From: a virus
IMG/VR virus record: IMGVR_UViG_3300018088_000001
Coordinates: 1-39,768 of that record
Strand: one strand, 5' to 3'
Length of the DNA: 39,768 bases
Each line of letters begins with the position of its first letter. Positions within the stretch are counted from its first letter, which is position 1. Positions 1,006-35,961 of the stretch are shown one piece after another. The translations under genes and the position numbers were made by a program. Below the pieces are notes generated by a model. That model was not told where the DNA came from and ran no database searches. It worked only from the letters and a program-made list of their open reading frames with translations.

Positions 1006-1031
1006 AGTCTTGCTCCTCTTGATAACCCGAC

Positions 1032-1057
1032 AATGCGTCTCTTGGTAGGGACGCATT
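1032..1057 (-). other. Intergenic stem-loop upstream of the 182-aa gene's RBS
   Basis: AATGCGTC (1032-1039) and GACGCATT (1050-1057) form a perfect 8-bp inverted repeat with a 10-base loop. It sits in the short gap between the 189-aa gene and the 182-aa gene, about 15 bases before the AGGAG of the latter, the same placement as the other stem-loops of this block. Confidence 0.55.
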
Positions 1058-1066
1058 AGCTGGTGA

Positions 1067-1662: not shown

Positions 1663-1718
1663 TTCTGTGCCCTGCTTGCTGCCACTCGATAGTACCGAAT
1701 GGCAGCAAACGCGACACA
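1663..1718 (-). repeat. 56-bp dispersed repeat, copy 1, with stem-loop
   Basis: This copy matches 2414-2469 at 55 of 56 positions. Its core is an inverted repeat, TTGCTGCCA with TGGCAGCAA, extended on the minus strand by a G-U pair and three more pairs to a 13-bp stem with a 7-base GTACTAT loop. Both copies lie in gaps, right after one gene's stop and before the next gene's RBS. Possible roles are an RNA processing site, a promoter or operator, or a terminator; a TACTAT in the loop could serve as a weak -10 box. Confidence 0.85.
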
Positions 1719-1720
1719 AA

Positions 1721-2413: not shown

Positions 2414-2469
2414 TTCTGTGCCCTGCTTGTTGCCACTCGATAGTACCGAATGGCAGCAAACGCGACACA
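2414..2469 (-). repeat. 56-bp dispersed repeat, copy 2, with stem-loop
   Basis: This copy has one base different from 1663-1718. The change falls in the stem, creating one mismatch on the minus-strand RNA but a G-U pair on the plus strand. It is placed between the stop of the 93-aa gene (2476) and the RBS of the 53-aa gene, the same context as copy 1. Confidence 0.85.
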
Positions 2470-2475
2470 CGAAAG

Positions 2476-2758: not shown

Positions 2759-2914
2759 TCAGCACCTGTTCGTCTCTATATAAGCGTTGCGATAGCTCCA
2801 ATAGGAGCCCACCGCGGATAAATAGCTCTGTGCCTCCCGTAGTGATGTGAATTCGGTTTCATGTTTCTTGTTGCCGAAGGTCCAGGCAACTACCGTGTAT
2901 GTCCTGAGTTTCAT
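2759..2914 (-). CDS. Hypothetical small protein, 51 aa
   Basis: This short frame starts with ATG at 2914, overlaps the upstream stop as ATGA, and has GGAGGGGA about eight bases upstream. It encodes 51 residues beginning MKLRTYTVVAW and ending IETNRC, with a beta-then-helix look (a TSLREAQSYL helix in the middle). Its snug fit between neighbours, filling the gap exactly, is the best evidence that it is real. Function unknown. Confidence 0.75.
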   Translation of the reverse strand: MKLRTYTVVAWTFGNKKHETEFTSLREAQSYLSAVGSYWSYRNAYIETNRC

Positions 2915-3090
2915 TTGTTGCATCCCCTCCGGCTTTCCGCCGTATCCCTAATGATCGAAAGAACCTCATCGCCCTCGATCATGCCACCATCGAAGTAATC
3001 AATTGCCACACGGATTAGAGCGTAGGCTGTCTCTACACACGGACGGGCAACCCATGCGTCTTGCGCCTCATTTAAGGTGTTCATATTCAT
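2911..3090 (-). CDS. Hypothetical small protein, 59 aa, at a duplicated start region
   Basis: The frame starts at ATG 3090 behind GGAGG and encodes 59 residues (start MNMNTLNEA). The 78-bp tandem duplication at 3065-3220 copies its leader, RBS and first nine codons in frame, so a second start at 3168 could add a 26-residue hydrophobic extension. The body has a helical segment, VETAYALIRVAIDYF, and an IEGDEVLSIIRD segment. It may be a small helical regulator; no family is recognised. Confidence 0.75.
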   Translation of the reverse strand: MNMNTLNEAQDAWVARPCVETAYALIRVAIDYFDGGMIEGDEVLSIIRDTAESRRGCNK

Positions 3091-3111
3091 TCTCCGCTCT
3101 GTCCTCCCTAA

Positions 3112-3134
3112 CATTGTTAGCAACGCTAACAGTG
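3112..3134 (-). promoter_or_regulatory. Leader stem-loop A next to RBS
   Basis: On the minus-strand RNA CACTGTTAGC pairs with GCTAACAATG around GTT, with one C-A mismatch. The stem ends directly at TTAGGGAGG, the RBS of the 59-aa gene starting at 3090. Such a position could control ribosome access or protect the message from decay. Confidence 0.6.
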
Positions 3135-3145
3135 CTAGAGGCGCC

Positions 3146-3247
3146 TCATTTAAGGTGTTCATATTCATTCTCCGCTTTGTCCTCCCTAACACTGCCAGCA
3201 ACGCTAACAGTGCTAGAGGCGACAAACGCATCACTTGCGAGCGGCAT
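3146..3247 (-). CDS. Possible 33-aa leader peptide across a repeat unit
   Basis: An ATG directly after the TAA of the 21-aa frame (TAAATG) opens 33 codons that read through stem-loop B and end within the duplicated start region. The only RBS-like sequence is GGGGGAA just upstream. Coding is doubtful; it may be an accidental frame over a structured leader, or a leader peptide whose translation opens the stem-loop. Confidence 0.25.
   Translation of the reverse strand: MPLASDAFVASSTVSVAGSVREDKAENEYEHLK
3190..3212 (-). promoter_or_regulatory. Leader stem-loop B next to RBS
   Basis: On the minus-strand RNA CACTGTTAGC pairs with GCTGGCAGTG around GTT, all ten pairs formed with two G-U. It is followed by TTAGGGAGG and the ATG at 3168. 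On the plus strand the same bases give two mismatches, so the structure belongs to the minus-strand transcript. Confidence 0.6.
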
Positions 3248-3313
3248 TTATTCCCCCACATTCGGCAGCGTTCCCCACACATAGGCGAGTAGAAGAAGAT
3301 TGAGTTTCCACAT
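3248..3313 (-). CDS. Tiny hydrophobic peptide, 21 aa
   Basis: A strong RBS (AAGGGAGG) sits about seven bases before ATG 3313, opening a 21-codon frame that starts MWKLNLLLLAYVWG. The hydrophobic core is long enough for a short membrane-associated helix. It lies between the 59-aa genes, in a gap otherwise filled by repeat leaders. It could be a real microprotein or a leader peptide; the RBS is the main support. Confidence 0.5.
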   Translation of the reverse strand: MWKLNLLLLAYVWGTLPNVGE

Positions 3314-3326
3314 TGGTTTTCCTCCC

Positions 3327-3506
3327 TTAGATATAGACAGTTGAGAGAGATATTGCGTAAGCGGCGTCGTGTAGTTCAGACGCAACCCATACACTCCAAA
3401 GCCCGCGCTGCTGCTTTATCGTGGGCCGTATTCCGTGATTGTTTAATGCCGCGATAAGGCGTTGCGCATTGGCGTGGCTTTGAAATGTCTCAACGAGTTT
3501 GATCAT
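3327..3506 (-). CDS. Hypothetical small protein, 59 aa
   Basis: The ATG at 3506 is preceded by AAAGGGA at about eight bases; a longer frame to 3584 would translate the leader repeat and is rejected. The pattern FQSHANAQRLIAAL, then NHGIRP, then QQRGLWSVWVA looks like a small alpha-beta fold and loosely recalls the cytoplasmic N-terminal domain of GlpG or DUF2007-type proteins. That resemblance is by eye and weak. It follows leader copy C (3540-3562). Confidence 0.75.
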   Translation of the reverse strand: MIKLVETFQSHANAQRLIAALNNHGIRPTIKQQRGLWSVWVASELHDAAYAISLSTVYI

Positions 3507-3539
3507 TGCTGTTATCCCTTTCAGCTTTGCCCTCCCTAA

Positions 3540-3562
3540 CACCGCTAGGATCGCTAACGGTG
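3540..3562 (-). promoter_or_regulatory. Leader stem-loop C next to RBS-like GGGAGG
   Basis: On the minus-strand RNA CACCGTTAG pairs with CTAGCGGTG around a 5-base loop, nine pairs including one G-U. Pair 4 is C-G here but T-A in copies A and B, a compensatory change. Like the others it is followed by TTAGGGAGG; the true RBS of the 59-aa gene (3506) is slightly further on. Confidence 0.6.
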
Positions 3563-3583
3563 CTAGAGGCGACAAACACCGCA

Positions 3584-3862
3584 CTATGATTTGTCCGCCT
3601 GCTGTATCTCTTGAACGATACGGACCGCATCACCGCTATCACCGTAAGCCTTGATGCTTTTCCAAGCCTGAGACTGAGAGCGAGAAAACGTGATGTAAGG
3701 TCGCCACTGATCATCGTCACGCCAGCGATCTATTGCCTTGTAAGACCACGCAATGCCGACGTGCGTATAATCAGAGTGCAGACTGCGCCGCGTCACCACA
3801 TACTCACCATTCGGAAAGGCGGGTTCGGTGATCACAACGCGATAGTTTGTGTACTTCTTCAT
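3584..3862 (-). CDS. Hypothetical protein, 92 aa; first gene of the leftward block
   Basis: The ATG at 3862 follows AGGA at eight bases, so the ten extra residues of the longest frame are left out. The product is basic in its first half (YRVVITEPAF, VVTRRSLH) with Trp and Tyr residues, and looks like a compact alpha-beta protein; no family is recognised. It is the first gene downstream of the divergent control region, so it should be among the earliest expressed. Its leader contains GCTGGCGGTTACGGGCAGG, a diverged relative of the stem-loop/RBS leader seen at 3190-3212. Confidence 0.78.
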   Translation of the reverse strand: MKKYTNYRVVITEPAFPNGEYVVTRRSLHSDYTHVGIAWSYKAIDRWRDDDQWRPYITFSRSQSQAWKSIKAYGDSGDAVRIVQEIQQADKS

Positions 3863-4125
3863 AGTTCTTTTCCTGCCCGTAACCGCCAGCAATCAAGCTA
3901 GCCACTGTGAGAGTGCTGCGGACGTTGTCCCGTGTGCGCCGTCCGTGATTGGCAGAGAACACCATTTCGGAGATGCTGTCAATCTGTTCGGATCAAAATA
4001 ATGTGCTGCGGTGCGATAGACCGTGAACGCACACGGGCAAGAGGTGTAAGGGGTGTTTGGGGGTGTTAGGGTTGCGTAACCCTACGCTATGCCTCGCGTG
4101 GCTAGGTATAAGCCGGCCATGACGA

Positions 4126-4173
4126 GATAGGTAAACATAGCTTACCTATCTAGGTAAACATAGCTTACCTATC
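4126..4173. promoter_or_regulatory. Tandem palindromic operator or iteron, two perfect 23-bp copies
   Basis: Positions 4128-4150 and 4151-4173 are identical. Each is an inverted repeat, TAGGTAA, a 7-base ACATAGC spacer, then TTACCTA; in the first copy the arms extend to GATAGGTAA/TTACCTATC. Two adjacent dyads of this length are typical of binding sites for a dimeric helix-turn-helix repressor or a replication initiator. Small putative DNA-binding proteins encoded at 37765-37953 and 38429-38623 are candidate partners. Confidence 0.75.
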
Positions 4174-5749: not shown

Positions 5750-7393
5750 ATGGCCCTCCCGAAGCTCCGCAATTTAGGGGCCGTGGGTGTGATTGCCGAT
5801 CGTGATCCATACGATCTTCCGCCCAATGCCTTCTCGATGGCCGTGAATGTCCGCTTCCGCAACGGCCGTGTCACCAGCGCTCCTGTCCACAAGTCAGTCA
5901 AGCTCCTCTCGACCGACAACCCACGCTACGTCGCGGGCTTCACGCCGACCCAGGGCATCTCCTCCCTGTTCATTGGGTATCGCAACGGCCGTGTGTTCAG
6001 CGTGGCCAACGGTGTTGAGACCGACTACTCCGTCGCTGGGTATGTTCAGAACGATGTCGAGGCCACGTGGACCTCCTGCTTCCTGGCGGACACGATCTAC
6101 ATCAACCGGAGCGACCGCGCCCCGTGGATGCTGGGCCTAGCTAACGCCCAGTTCCTACCGCTCCCAAACATGGACAGCGCCTGGACGGCCCAGTTGCTGC
6201 GTGTCTGTACGGGCGCCCTGGTGGCCCTCAATGTCACGAAGGGCGGCACCACCTATCAGACGATGGTGAAGACCTCGTCACAGCCCCTAGCTGGAGAACC
6301 GCCGGCCTCGTGGGACATCACCCAGGCTAACACCCTCGCCAGTGAGAACATCCTGGCTGAGATGCACGGCCCGATCATGGACGCCTGCAATCTGGGGCGG
6401 GACCTGATCATCTACGGGTTGAATGAGGCGTGGCGTATGACCGCCACCGCGGACATCTTCGAGTACAGTTACACCAAGCTACCCTTCTCGAAGGGCTCTC
6501 TCAACGCCAACTGTTCGATCGAGATAAATTCGAAGAACTACGTGTTCGGTTCTGACGATATCTGGGTTCACGATGGCGTCAGCGAGGACAGTGTCTGCGA
6601 TCAGCGGGTTAGGGACTTCATCTACGGCTCGATCAACATGAGCCAAGCATCCCGCTGCTTCGTCTCTCACAACCAACAGCTACACGAAATCCACTTCAAC
6701 TTCGTGAGTGGTGACCAGTTCGTGAAGTTCTCCCCGGCCTCCGGTATCAACGGATGCAATCGCCGGGCCGTGTTGGACTACGTGAACAACACCTGGACCT
6801 TCGACGATGCGCCATCAGTGTTTGGGGCCTCCCGTGCCTCTCTGGACGTGAGCCAGACGTGGAGCAGTGGCAGCCAGACCTGGGCCTCCGTAAACGGCCC
6901 CTGGCAGGCCCTGGACGATACAGCGAAGCGCTGCATCGTGTACGTGGGCGAGACCAACACGACCTACTCTTTGTCGAAGTCCCTCTACGCCTTCGACCCG
7001 TACTCGACCCAGCTTCCTGGGATGCCCCCGGCGATCACCGCCTTCTCGGTTGATCCGAACGCCACGGGGTTTGCCTTCCTCGAAAGGGACGGCATCGACC
7101 TCGAAGCATTGGACGCTGACCTGCAGGGCTACAAGCTCATCAGCTACGTGGTCCCCCTTGGGCGTATCGACCCGCAGTCCTCACAATCGCTCAACTTCTC
7201 TCTGGGTGCCGCGGACTACTACAACGAGACCCCGACCTTTACCACCCCGCAGGGCTTCGACAGTCAGTCTTTGTACAAGATCGACCTCAATCAGGCGGGC
7301 CGCTACGTCTGCCTCAAAGTCAATTTCAACGATTATCCGCCGTTCTCGTGGTCTGGCTTCGACTTCGATGTCGATGTGACCGGCGAGCGCTGA
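5750..7393 (+). CDS. Virion protein, tail hub / DNA-stabilisation type, 547 aa
   Basis: The start (LPKLRNLGAVGVIADRDPYD, then LPPNAFSMAVNVRFRNG) matches the N-terminus of a large podovirus virion family usually placed with P22 gp10-like stabilisation proteins or tail hubs. The body is rich in Trp, Gly and aromatic beta-strand patterns (for example IWVHDGVSEDSV, WTFDDAPSVFGASR), consistent with a beta-propeller-like ring protein. It would seal the portal and connect it to fibres. It follows a 243-bp gap with structure and is itself followed by other virion genes. The family assignment is by recognition of pattern, not by alignment. Confidence 0.7.
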   Translation: MALPKLRNLGAVGVIADRDPYDLPPNAFSMAVNVRFRNGRVTSAPVHKSVKLLSTDNPRYVAGFTPTQGISSLFIGYRNGRVFSVANGVETDYSVAGYVQNDVEATWTSCFLADTIYINRSDRAPWMLGLANAQFLPLPNMDSAWTAQLLRVCTGALVALNVTKGGTTYQTMVKTSSQPLAGEPPASWDITQANTLASENILAEMHGPIMDACNLGRDLIIYGLNEAWRMTATADIFEYSYTKLPFSKGSLNANCSIEINSKNYVFGSDDIWVHDGVSEDSVCDQRVRDFIYGSINMSQASRCFVSHNQQLHEIHFNFVSGDQFVKFSPASGINGCNRRAVLDYVNNTWTFDDAPSVFGASRASLDVSQTWSSGSQTWASVNGPWQALDDTAKRCIVYVGETNTTYSLSKSLYAFDPYSTQLPGMPPAITAFSVDPNATGFAFLERDGIDLEALDADLQGYKLISYVVPLGRIDPQSSQSLNFSLGAADYYNETPTFTTPQGFDSQSLYKIDLNQAGRYVCLKVNFNDYPPFSWSGFDFDVDVTGER

Positions 7394-7869: not shown

Positions 7870-9837
7870 ATGGCGTGGTCCCTGATTGCGTCAGCCATCA
7901 ACGGCGCGGGTGGCGGCAGTCCGATTTCCACGTCAGCGATCAACACCACAGGCGCCGATCTGCTCGTGGTTACGATCAACGGGTTTGGGACGGGGATCGG
8001 TACTGTTTCTGATAGCCAGGGCAACACCTGGACCCTAGTGGCCACTCAGTCTGACAGCACGAACAGCCGTCAGACCCTGGCGATCTATTACTGCTCCTCC
8101 CCGTCTACGTCGTCCTCACACACGTTCACAGTCAGCACTTCCGACTTCGGCTGTATTTCGGTCAGCGCTTTCTCGGGTTCTGGTAGCTCTCCGCTTGATC
8201 AGCACATCTCCGCGATCCGGGCCGGCAACGGCAGCACGACCACGGATCAGGCCGGTAGCATCACTCCGTCCTTCAGCGGCGAACTGGTCTTCTACGCGGT
8301 TGCCCTCGACGACCCGTCACTAGGCGCCACACCTACGTGTGATAGCGGCTTCACCGTCGATACCTTCAAGGACGGTTCTCCGGGCTCACTGTTCGGCCTT
8401 GCGACTAGCCACCTATTTCAGACAAGCGCTGTGGCCATAAACCCGACGCTGACCCGTGCTACGGCGACATCCAACAGCCGTACCGACATCATGATGCTGG
8501 TGTCGTTCAAGGGCAGCGCCGTCTCGAACAACTACACCCTGTCGGCGGCGGAGGGTGCCTTCTCCCTCAGCGGGCAGTCTCAGGTCCTGGGGCACGGCAG
8601 GACGATCTCTGCCTCCCAGGCGGCCTTCTCTCTCACCGGAGAGGCCGTAGTCTGGTTCCGCGGGCGCAACATGCCAGCAAGCGCCGGCATCTACTCAGCA
8701 GCTACGCGGACCGCCGTGCTCTCCAGGGGCCGCGGCATCACAGCAGTGAGCGGGGCCTTCTCGCTCTCCGTGTTCGGGGCGGTGATCAACAGCACCCGAA
8801 CAATGCTGTGCTCCGAGACCGCCTTCTCTCTCACTGGGCGTGCTATCGGCACCTCCTGGGGGCGCCTGTTCGGTGTCTCTTCAGGCATCTTCACCGAGGC
8901 GGGCGAAGCTCAAACATTCCATGTGGGCCGCAACGTCCAGGCAGCCCAAGGGACCTTCTCGTACATTGGCCCCATAACGGGCCTCAGCCACGGCCAGACC
9001 CTCAGCGCGGCCCAGGGAGCCTTCTCTCTCTCAGGAAAGGCACAGGCCACCAACTACGGACGGCGCTGCTCAGCATCTCAGGGCGCGTTCTCCCTCTTCG
9101 GGACCACGACACCCCTGAAATACGGGCGCCTCATGACTGCCACCCAGGGCGCCTTCTCTCTCACCGGAGAGCAGGCCACACTGTCCCGATCGGGCCAGAA
9201 GGTCCTCACGGCCCAGACGGGCTCATTCTCGATCTTCGGTACCGGACCGGGCACCTCTTACGGTCCAGGGATGCTCGCGACGGTGGGGTCGTTCTCCCTC
9301 ACCGGGAGGCCCCAGGCCGTAAACGTCCAGCGCTGGACCGCCACCACTATGGGCTCCTTCTCCCTCACCGGGAAGCCGCAGGTCCTATCCTGGGGCCGTG
9401 TGTTCAGCGCAGCGGAGGGGTCCTTCTCGCTCTTCGGGGAGCCACAGGCCCTGTCCCGCAAGATCAGCATGGCTGCGGCTCAGGCATCCTTCGCCCTCAC
9501 CGGCTTCACCAGCACGGGCCAGAAGTCCTCGCACTTCTCCCTGCCAGCCGCTCAGGGCGCCTTCACCCTTGTGGGCTTCTCGCAGCGGTTCAACGTCTCC
9601 CGGCTGATGCAGGCGACGGTGCAGTTCTTCACCTTCAGCCCGAAGGGGGTCTCCATGACCCCGGCCGGACCCGGAATTACTGCTGTCGTACCTGTCACCA
9701 CGGTGCCGTATGTCCCGCGGACGCAGCCGATCCTGCCCGGTGGAGAAACGAAGTTCCTCAGAAGCGAACTCGAAAACATCTCGAAGGCGATCAAGGCCGC
9801 CAATGCAGCAATTCAAGCCGTCAACAGTCGGGTGTGA
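7870..9837 (+). CDS. Virion protein with about seventeen 22-residue repeats, 655 aa
   Basis: The first ~220 residues form a Ser/Thr/Gly-rich beta domain (contains SDSQGNTWTLV and ELVFYAVALDD) common in phage and bacterial surface proteins. From about residue 222 to 600 there are some seventeen repeats of about 22 residues built on GAFSLTGxxxxxxxGRxxxAxQ; most vary between repeats only in the linker. The C-terminus (LRSELENISKAIKAANAAIQ) predicts a trimeric coiled coil. It should be a long fibrous or beta-solenoid virion appendage, perhaps host-binding. Its 3' end overlaps the next gene by 35 bases. Confidence 0.8.
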   Translation: MAWSLIASAINGAGGGSPISTSAINTTGADLLVVTINGFGTGIGTVSDSQGNTWTLVATQSDSTNSRQTLAIYYCSSPSTSSSHTFTVSTSDFGCISVSAFSGSGSSPLDQHISAIRAGNGSTTTDQAGSITPSFSGELVFYAVALDDPSLGATPTCDSGFTVDTFKDGSPGSLFGLATSHLFQTSAVAINPTLTRATATSNSRTDIMMLVSFKGSAVSNNYTLSAAEGAFSLSGQSQVLGHGRTISASQAAFSLTGEAVVWFRGRNMPASAGIYSAATRTAVLSRGRGITAVSGAFSLSVFGAVINSTRTMLCSETAFSLTGRAIGTSWGRLFGVSSGIFTEAGEAQTFHVGRNVQAAQGTFSYIGPITGLSHGQTLSAAQGAFSLSGKAQATNYGRRCSASQGAFSLFGTTTPLKYGRLMTATQGAFSLTGEQATLSRSGQKVLTAQTGSFSIFGTGPGTSYGPGMLATVGSFSLTGRPQAVNVQRWTATTMGSFSLTGKPQVLSWGRVFSAAEGSFSLFGEPQALSRKISMAAAQASFALTGFTSTGQKSSHFSLPAAQGAFTLVGFSQRFNVSRLMQATVQFFTFSPKGVSMTPAGPGITAVVPVTTVPYVPRTQPILPGGETKFLRSELENISKAIKAANAAIQAVNSRV

Positions 9838-25264: not shown

Positions 25265-26601
25265 TGACCGGCTCCTTCTTCGGCACCAACAATCCGACCT
25301 ACACGGTAGTCGATCAGCCCCCAAGCACCCCCACCGGATACTCGGCCCCCACCACTCCCGCCCCAAGCTCGTTCTTTCAAGATAGCGGGCCCACCCTCCA
25401 GGGGTACACGCCCATGCTCGGGCCTCAAGGGGCCACGGGCGCTACGGGACCGATAGGGCCTGCCGGCCCCACGGGACCCCAGGGACCCACAGGAGCTACG
25501 GGGTCCGTTGGAGCTACGGGCTCGCAGGGCCCCCAAGGGCCTACAGGAGCTACGGGCTCGCAAGGTCCCCAAGGACCTACGGGCTCCACAGGCGCGACCG
25601 GGGCCACAGGGGCGACAGGCGCGACCGGGGCCACTGGTGCTGCCGGTTCCGCGGCAACCGTCTCTGTGGGCACCACAACGACCCTGGCGGCCGGCTCCAG
25701 CGCGACCGTGACCAACAGCGGGACCGGCGCAGCGGCCGTGCTCAACTTCGGCATCCCCCAGGGGGCCGCGGGCACGGGCACAGTAACCAGCGTGGCCATG
25801 ACCGTCCCCACGGGCCTCACGGTTGCGGGCAGCCCCATCACCGCCAACGGCACTCTGGCCCTCTCGTGGTCCGGAACCGTCCCGGCTGCTCAACTCCCCA
25901 ATCCAACCACATCGGCGCTAGGGGGTGTTCAGGCGGTTACGGCTGTCTCGCATAAGTGGCTGTCCTCGATCAGCACCGGCGGCGTTCCGGCCCTGACCCA
26001 GCCTGCCTTCTCGGACATCAGCGGCAACATCGCCACGTCCCAGATGAACAGCGGGACCAGCGCGAGTAGCTCGACCTTCTGGCGGGGCGATGGGACGTGG
26101 GCGGCTGCCAGCAGCGGCGCAATGACCCTGCTGTCTACCACAACGATCTCTACGGCCCAGGCGAGCGCGGCGCTGTCCCTGTCTGGGTTCACGCGCTACG
26201 AGATTGAGCTTTACAACGTTGTTCCGGCGACGGCCAGTACCATCCTGGAATTGACGCTGACGAACGCTACCGTCAGCCCGACCAACTACACAGGGACCGG
26301 CTGGGCCAATACCGGAAGCTCCCTGGCCGCTGACAACTTTACCGCCACCGCATATATCCCGGTCACCCGTAACACCGGAGATACCACCACATCTACCGCG
26401 GGTGTGTCGGGTAAGATCAAGATATTCGCCAATACGCCGGGTGAGATGGTCGTGATGACCGAGGCCACCTATAACGCCACGGGACAAACAGCCAACCATG
26501 GTGGGATTGGTGTGGGCTCCGGCGCCCTCACCACCGCGACACTTGCTTTCTCCAGCGGCAACATCTCCAGCGGAATGATCAAGGTCTACGGTATCCCATG
26601 A
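25264..26601 (+). CDS. Collagen-like tail fibre or spike protein, 445 aa
   Basis: Residues ~53-130 are about 26 consecutive Gly-X-Y triplets (GPQ, GAT, GPT types), predicting a collagen-like trimeric helix. It follows a Pro/Ser/Thr-rich N-terminus that could anchor to the virion, and precedes a beta-rich distal region typical of phage fibres ([26 protein letters not shown]). The final ~170 residues would form a receptor-binding head. It overlaps the next small gene as ATGA, which often marks a fibre and its accessory protein. Confidence 0.85.
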
Positions 26602-28442: not shown

Positions 28443-28574
28443 ATGTTCCCCGCAACGATCCACGCCGCTGGCGTCCCCGGCGGCACCCTGTTCCTCGTCA
28501 GCGTGGTCAGCGGCGTGGCGACTTACGCCACCGCCCCGGCGCCCACACCGCCTCCCCAGCTTCCCCACCCATAA
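28443..28574 (+). CDS. Small membrane protein with Pro-rich tail, 43 aa
   Basis: ATG 28443 with TAGGA upstream opens 43 codons: a hydrophobic segment (GGTLFLVSVVSGVATYA) followed by a Pro-rich tail (APAPTPPPQLPHP). A hydrophobic segment with a proline-rich end recalls small spanin-type outer-membrane lipoproteins, but no lipobox Cys is present, so that is not claimed. It is the last rightward gene before the terminator. Confidence 0.55.
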   Translation: MFPATIHAAGVPGGTLFLVSVVSGVATYATAPAPTPPPQLPHP

Positions 28575-28575
28575 G

Positions 28576-28628
28576 ACAAAAACCCCCCTGTACGGCCCTA
28601 AAGGCTATACAGGGGGGTTTATTTTTTT
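28576..28628. terminator. Bidirectional terminator between convergent blocks
   Basis: AAACCCCCCTGTA (28580-28592) pairs with TACAGGGGGGTTT (28608-28620). On the plus strand ATTTTTTT follows; on the minus strand a TTTTTGTC run follows the other arm. It ends both the rightward late block and the leftward block, and its stem also encodes the last residues of the 69-aa minus-strand gene. Confidence 0.93.
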
Positions 28629-29333: not shown

Positions 29334-29533
29334 TTGATCCTCACAGCCACAGGAGCCACACAGTCTCCAGGGCCGCACGCGCCTTCAGCGTCACTCCGGC
29401 GGGTAAAGATGCGGGCGTACTTGAAGTCCGTGTCCCTGGCTCTGGTGGTGCCCTCTTTGTAGCTGTAGCGTCTCTGGCCGAGATAGCCGTCAGATGTGGC
29501 TACGACGTATGCCTCTCGTTCTTCACTTGGCAT
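29330..29533 (-). CDS. Hypothetical protein, 67 aa
   Basis: The ATG at 29533 lies just inside the end of the HslV-like gene, the usual overlap arrangement here. The product is basic with Tyr and Arg (YLGQRRYSYKEGTTRARDTDF) and two Cys near the end (GACGPGDCVAP). It could fold as a small beta domain. It may be co-translated with the HslV-like gene; no family is recognised. Confidence 0.65.
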   Translation of the reverse strand: MPSEEREAYVVATSDGYLGQRRYSYKEGTTRARDTDFKYARIFTRRSDAEGACGPGDCVAPVAVRIK

Positions 29534-29948
29534 CTTTGAACCGCACCTTCTTGATCTTGCCCCCACTACTGGTATCTCTTTTGGAGCCAATGGTGGCCGC
29601 GGACACAGCATCCGCTCCTGCATCCATCGCGCCGATCGCATATGGGGCACCCGAACCAATCGCGTGGTAGGGGTCGGTCTGCTTGATCCATATGTTGCCC
29701 TCGAAGCACGACACAGAGCCGTCTGGGTGTGCCCGGAGTGCAATCACGTCCAGGTTCGGGGGAGCATCCTGCCCCTTGACCAGGGCACGCTTGAGCCGCT
29801 CGGCATCCTCGACACCCCCAGCCCACCCAAACAGCGAGCCGTCGCGTAATCGGTGCACCTTGGTGGCCTTGTCGGTGACGACCATGCCCCCGACGGTGAC
29901 CCGGCTGTCAGCAGCTAGGACACCGTCTCGGTAGGCTACGGTGGTCAT
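29523..29948 (-). CDS. HslV / proteasome beta-like Ntn hydrolase, 141 aa
   Basis: The first residues after Met are Thr-Thr, as in HslV and proteasome beta subunits, where the exposed Thr is the nucleophile. Further matching points are GVLAADSR (the conserved Asp, D14), KATKVHRL (conserved Lys, K30), LFGWAGGVEDAERL (the GFAGG segment of HslV) and AIGSGAPYAIGAMDAGADA (the HslV IGSGG segment). HslV subunits of bacteria are about 175 aa, so this one is shorter. It presumably forms a threonine-protease ring or is a derived regulator. No HslU-like ATPase is seen in the window, so it may act alone or hijack a host unfoldase. Confidence 0.85.
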   Translation of the reverse strand: MTTVAYRDGVLAADSRVTVGGMVVTDKATKVHRLRDGSLFGWAGGVEDAERLKRALVKGQDAPPNLDVIALRAHPDGSVSCFEGNIWIKQTDPYHAIGSGAPYAIGAMDAGADAVSAATIGSKRDTSSGGKIKKVRFKDAK

Positions 29949-35299: not shown

Positions 35300-35404
35300 T
35301 CATTTCTTCCGCTTGTGGTCTTCCCGCCTGATCATGAGCCAGAGCACGCCGACAGTACCGAGGGCCATGAGGCCCAGGACATCCTGCAGGGTCCAAATAA
35401 ACAT
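35300..35404 (-). CDS. Tiny membrane protein, 34 aa
   Basis: ATG overlaps the upstream stop as ATGA. The 34 residues have a hydrophobic helix (LGLMALGTVGVLWLMI) and a highly basic C-terminus (RREDHKRKK), fitting a single-span protein with cytoplasmic tail. It sits directly in front of the polymerase gene, so it might tether replication to the membrane; this is a guess. Confidence 0.6.
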   Translation of the reverse strand: MFIWTLQDVLGLMALGTVGVLWLMIRREDHKRKK

Positions 35405-35961
35405 CACTTGTACGTCCTCACCACCGGGGCCTGCGTGAATTCCGCCACCAGCTTGAAGACCTTAACATCCCAGTGGTATGTATCCGCCCGCCCCTTGGCC
35501 CAGTCGTAGGCTTCCTGGTAGGTGCCGAACGTGAAGGTATCGGCATCGTCCTCCACGGCGTACTCGGGGCTCGCGAGTTCGTCCGGGTCGCATTCGAGCA
35601 TCAGATCAGCGGCGTTGAACCACCAATGCCCCCCATACTCCTCACCCAGATTAACTAACCAGGGGAGGCTGCCCTCCGCACTGCCATCCCTGGCAGTGAT
35701 ACGGCCTGACCTACCGATCAGATGGTCAGGGCCTTGGCCCCCACGAAACACGACCCGGTCACCGATCTTTAACTCCGCCGGGGCCGCCTCCAGTTCGTCG
35801 GCGTAGAACCACCTCGTCCCCCGACTATCAAACGTTGCGAGGTAGGGAACGTCGTCATCATCCACCTCGATGATGGTCCCAACCAGACCGCGGTGTCCTA
35901 CCTCCATTGAGGTCGGGCGCACGCGAACCTTGTCACCAACCTTGAATTTCGTATCGGTCAT
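35404..35961 (-). CDS. Protein with two SH3-like (KOW/MIB-type) modules, 185 aa
   Basis: Two related segments are visible: FKVGDKVRVRPTSMEVGHRG...GTIIEVDDDDVPYLATFD (about residues 5-45, in parts) and LKIGDRVVFRGGQGPDHLIGRSG (about 63-90), each with the VGD(K/R)V start of small SH3-like barrels. A helical C-terminus (YQEAYDWAKGRADTYHWDV) follows. These folds bind nucleic acid or protein. It lies between polymerase and primase-helicase. No specific role is known. Confidence 0.78.
   Translation of the reverse strand: MTDTKFKVGDKVRVRPTSMEVGHRGLVGTIIEVDDDDVPYLATFDSRGTRWFYADELEAAPAELKIGDRVVFRGGQGPDHLIGRSGRITARDGSAEGSLPWLVNLGEEYGGHWWFNAADLMLECDPDELASPEYAVEDDADTFTFGTYQEAYDWAKGRADTYHWDVKVFKLVAEFTQAPVVRTYK

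Follow-up and report, generated by a model that had tools for sequence, protein, structure and literature searches.

A family of imperfect hairpins between presumed early genes of a T7-like phage and its putative role in the early message

Genes and features of the window

The window, an IMG/VR virus record analyzed over its whole length of 39,768 nucleotides, carries T7-like replication genes on the minus strand (primase/helicase, DNA polymerase A, endonuclease I and a 5'-3' exonuclease) and structural genes on the plus strand. Among named primases, that of a Rhizobium phage is the closest to the one encoded here. Syntenic relatives, found via the terminase, share protein identities of about 35-53%, and those at about 50% show the same gene order. 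The corresponding early region of five of these relatives contains an ORF of about 820-890 aa. Two of these ORFs, in G002 and G005, were scanned and are T7-type RNA polymerases (PF00940) located at the end of the early region. The window showed no counterpart, whereas relatives carry the polymerase between the genes that lie at the two ends of the window; a piece joining positions 1 and 39768 is therefore probably missing from the contig. With this piece missing, the minus-strand stretch from 4250 to 1 is most likely the start of a putative early operon.

The head of this stretch holds two tandem copies of the palindrome TAGGTAAACATAGCTTACCTATC, a possible operator, and a short peptide ORF lies between hairpins C and B (Table 1). 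Elsewhere in the window, a minus-strand ORF matches the Proteasome subunit family (PF00227, E 1e-8), which is unusual in a phage, two plus-strand genes contain internal repeats, and a strong terminator-like inverted repeat separates the converging operons.

Table 1. Position in the window of the hairpins, neighboring genes and other features (CM, covariance model; SD, Shine-Dalgarno sequence).
Feature	Position	Strand	Structure or content	Neighboring gene	Fold and model scores
Hairpin C	3524-3578	-	UUUGUC-GC-(inner stem, 15-16 bp)-AG-GGCAAA	5' of 59-aa gene (3506-3327)	fold -34.1 kcal/mol, z -4.1; CM 76.5 bits
Hairpin B	3174-3228	-	UUUGUC-GC-(inner stem, 16 bp)-AG-GACAAA	adjoins GGAG and MNMNTLNEA start	fold -34.9 kcal/mol, z -6.7; CM 73.3 bits
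Hairpin A	3096-3150	-	tandem duplicate of B; inner stem with one C.A mismatch, without outer 5' arm		CM 38.7 bits; pair counts
Hairpin D2	2415-2471	-	clamp and internal loop as in B and C, other inner stem	5' of 53-aa gene (2382-2221)	z -4.8; B and C-only model 35.2 bits
Hairpin D1	1664-1720	-	built as D2	5' of 189-aa gene (1636-1067)	z -6.7; B and C-only model 35.8 bits
Possible sixth intercistronic hairpin	1018-1066	-	several mismatches	adjoins AGGAG of 182-aa gene (1005-457)	gap fold z -4.8
92-aa early gene	3584-3862	-	first of the putative operon; hairpin of the B, C, D1 and D2 type absent in front
59-aa early gene	3327-3506	-	follows hairpin C; SD AAAGGGA
Gene after B and A	2911-3168	-	translation: 85-aa reading from the start at B, in frame through A; shorter form starts at 3090
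Peptide ORF	3249-3311	-	21-aa hydrophobic peptide, MWKLNLLLLAYVWGTLPNVGE; strong SD, AAGGGAGG
Palindrome	4128-4173		23 bp, two tandem copies
Proteasome-like ORF	29523-29948	-	141 aa
Repeats in structural gene	8540-9570		66-nt period
Repeats in another gene	25429-25608	+	collagen-like
Inverted repeat	28573-28627		U-runs on both strands

Architecture of the hairpin family

RNA folding of the minus strand shows that B and C are 55-nt hairpins, in which an outer stem of 6 bp (UUUGUC/GRCAAA) and an inner stem of 15-16 bp are separated by an invariant 2x2 internal loop (5'GC/3'AG). The initial annotation had described three stem-loop leaders, A, B and C; these minus-strand copies lie where it placed them, with GTTAGGGAGG exactly three times in the window and nowhere else. 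Their inner part is as described, although the true element extends to 55 nt by the outer stem and the internal loop. The three copies are not independent, since A and B form a 78-bp direct tandem repeat in which A is the downstream unit.

Two further members, D1 and D2, were absent from that annotation. They show 98% identity to each other over 56 nt, and in relation to B and C their register and internal loop are identical and their clamp nearly so, while the inner stem is different. The clamp motifs TKTGTCGC and AGGRCAMAG occur four times each in the window, every time inside B, C, D1 or D2; a looser motif scan in two parts, allowing 3 mismatches, was uninformative. All four of these hairpins occupy intergenic gaps of the strand presumed to carry the early genes. 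The possible sixth hairpin was not matched by the covariance models and falls outside the sequence family of B, C, D1 and D2, and no Rfam family matched the window above its gathering score.

The proposed fusion of the leader to a ribosome binding site did not hold. GGGAGG sits in the stem and internal loop, and the SD of each gene is found downstream of the hairpin: GGAG for the A and B genes, AAGGGA (AAAGGGA in its longer form) for the C gene, and CAGGGAG and CCGGAGG for the D1 and D2 pair. The distance from hairpin to start codon ranges between 5 and 32 nt. A diverged relative that had been suggested at 3875-3910 was matched by neither covariance model, even with filters off. The 59-aa gene behind hairpin C has no PHROG match.

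Pairing, covariation and strand

The pair changes noted initially among the three leaders were confirmed: in C one pair has changed on both sides from U-A to C-G, and two other pairs switch between U-A and U-G. These changes keep the stem paired; in A, however, a C.A mismatch interrupts the inner stem and the outer stem is broken. Covariation from A, B and C alone is not above shuffles (158/500). When a model is trained only on B and C, it finds D1 and D2 at 35-36 bits (E about 1e-8), with the next unrelated match at 13.7 bits. In the alignment of B, C, D1 and D2, 97.7% of cells are paired and both sides have changed in 11 of the 22 pairs, and pairing falls to about 40% when the partner is shifted by one base. 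Between C and D1 the clamp is conserved at 16 of 20 positions (naive p about 4e-7), while the inner stem has another sequence of unchanged length. This is the pattern to expect from a protein that recognizes the clamp and a certain helix length.

All hairpin copies are from one contig. Any two palindromes aligned at their centers covary, thus the covariation reflects a shared dyad architecture, and together with the recovery of D1 and D2 it cannot by itself separate RNA from DNA dyads. The case for RNA of the minus strand comes from three other observations. The non-Watson-Crick positions on this strand are more often G.U than A.C (9 vs. 2 counted per family, one-sided p about 0.03; 6 to 2 by distinct columns), the plus-strand folds are weaker, and all copies are oriented alike relative to the genes downstream. 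Overall, the proposed selection on RNA structure in the minus strand is supported, and D1 and D2 carry most of that support.

Search for the element in relatives and other genomes

The absence of the leader from related phages had been named beforehand as a result that would refute the structural claim. None was found in relatives at about 50% identity, which shows that the element is not widely conserved and does not disprove the pairing. An architecture scan over about 2 Mb of relatives gave no convincing case other than the window, and neither a looser architecture scan of the relatives nor covariance model R1, run over 1 Mb of them, found the element. A weak match of the B and C model in the closest relative (L193:5171-5217, E 0.09) was dropped, as this segment folds differently. 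The search for repeated hairpins in the relatives' loci otherwise gave only coding-looking repeats. Exact and degenerate leader patterns in IMG/VR and GTDB contigs had no match or fell inside unrelated coding sequence, and no near or distant DNA matches were found in phages and plasmids. Since no other locus, the closest relatives included, holds the element, the family is limited to this phage or to close relatives outside the sampled genomes. Furthermore, folding of the early gaps in five relatives was mostly no better than shuffles, which argues against hairpin processing as a general trait of this phage group.

The early region of the closest relative, G001 (L193:1-1669), read by eye, shows a phage-integrase-like ORF beside a MarR-like ORF, and the annotation of RHEph21 has this pair too. 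Both are possibly temperate T7-like phages, a type of which LUZ100 is a described case (PMC10134795).

Possible functions of the hairpins

A shared, putative post-transcriptional role for the early genes is plausible, and the best reading of the family is as intercistronic processing or end-protecting hairpins of the early operon. In its specific form, to which we give about an even chance, the hairpins would be intercistronic processing sites. The region would be transcribed leftward as a single polycistronic early message of this T7-like phage, and RNase III of the host, or another nuclease of this double-strand type, would bind the helix of about 24 pairs and cut near the internal loop. This putative cleavage would, as in T7, distribute the early genes over shorter messages whose 3' ends are structured and whose 5' ends are clean and lie beside the SD of each gene.

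This reading starts from direct observations of structure, family, position and the T7-type polymerase in relatives. In its favor, the four intact hairpins have a common architecture and register, and the model from two of them finds the other two. Their build of 6 bp, 2x2 loop and 15-16 bp is that of a T7-type RNase III site, an imperfect double-stranded hairpin that spans about two helical turns and is interrupted by an internal loop, and they are intergenic on the strand of the putative early message. RNase III of S. meliloti, an alphaproteobacterium, cleaves T7 R1.1 and favors longer dsRNA (PMC6121014). If the hairpins are processing sites, hairpin-based processing of early messages would exist in a T7-like group far from T7, and would arise or turn over fast enough that relatives at about 50% identity lack it. 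The conserved clamp and variable inner stem would then be a natural experiment on what the recognizing factor reads, and the duplication of B into A shows the consequence of losing half of the clamp.

The chief rival, to which we assign perhaps one chance in four, is that the hairpins act without cutting, as 5' stabilizers or translational operators whose outer stem and GC/AG loop would be recognized by an RNA-binding protein of the host or the phage, which would coordinate translation or decay of several early genes. A conserved clamp with a swapped inner stem suits recognition by a protein, and in A and B the SD GGAG begins immediately after the stem; however, the variable distance to the start codon is a poor fit for an operator, and no convincing RNA-binding protein was found among the scanned window proteins, with only a sub-threshold ProQ-like match in 35404-35961. 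Rather unlikely is a phage-specific RNA regulon, in which inner stems of constant length would be exchangeable within the conserved clamp (UKUGUC-GC / AG-GRCAMA), a dedicated factor would recognize the element and co-regulate several early genes, and the element would have spread by copying between genes of this genome.

Slightly lower still we place action at the DNA level, either as dyad sites for a DNA-binding protein, as has been proposed for ESAS, or as copied palindromes without RNA function. Near-palindromes copied to several intergenic places would fit, and two unrelated palindromes would show similar covariation, but the mismatches that are mostly G.U on the minus strand become A.C on the plus strand, and the weaker plus-strand folds and the single orientation of all copies speak for RNA. 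Very improbable is a promoter of the phage T7-type RNA polymerase formed by GTTAGGGAGG and its flank and ending in a GGGAGA-like start: GGGAGG does resemble the +1 region of T7 promoters and three copies of GTTAGGGAGG precede genes, but D1 and D2 lack it, it is found only at A, B and C and not before the structural operon, nor before both middle and late operons as in the T7 type, and relative G006 has an unlike, non-palindromic plausible promoter family, GCAYTTTTGTTGACCTTAAGGAAGGAG, before structural and early/middle genes. The four near-GCAYTTTTGTTGACCTTAAGGAAGGAG copies of G006, at 7049(+), 45074(-), 42146(-) and 42100(-), are probably T7-type RNA polymerase promoters there.

Comparison with known systems

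T7 was folded around the positions which we take to be those of R0.3, R0.5, R1, R1.1 and R1.3, and the structures obtained fit them. Each shows an upper stem, an internal loop and a lower stem, located ahead of the gene ribosome binding site in R0.3, R0.5, R1 and R1.3. The hairpins of the window are likewise imperfect internal-loop hairpins situated between presumed early genes, a short distance ahead of the following gene's ribosome binding site, in a phage with T7-like replication genes whose relatives have a T7-type RNA polymerase. They differ from the T7 sites in sequence, in the longer upper stem (15-16 bp), in the symmetric 2x2 internal loop, which is larger and asymmetric in T7, and in their absence from relatives; their cleavage is putative.

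The SAS and ESAS elements of cluster K mycobacteriophages are also short repeats that have inverted arms and are placed immediately before the start codons of several non-structural genes (PMC3203893). None of the five elements contains the 13-bp GGGATAGGAGCCC overlapping the ribosome binding site, and their SDs are separate and different. The ESAS arms do not support RNA pairing and SAS is the ribosome binding site itself (PMC3203893), unlike the present hairpins, in which pairing is kept and the ribosome binding site is separate.
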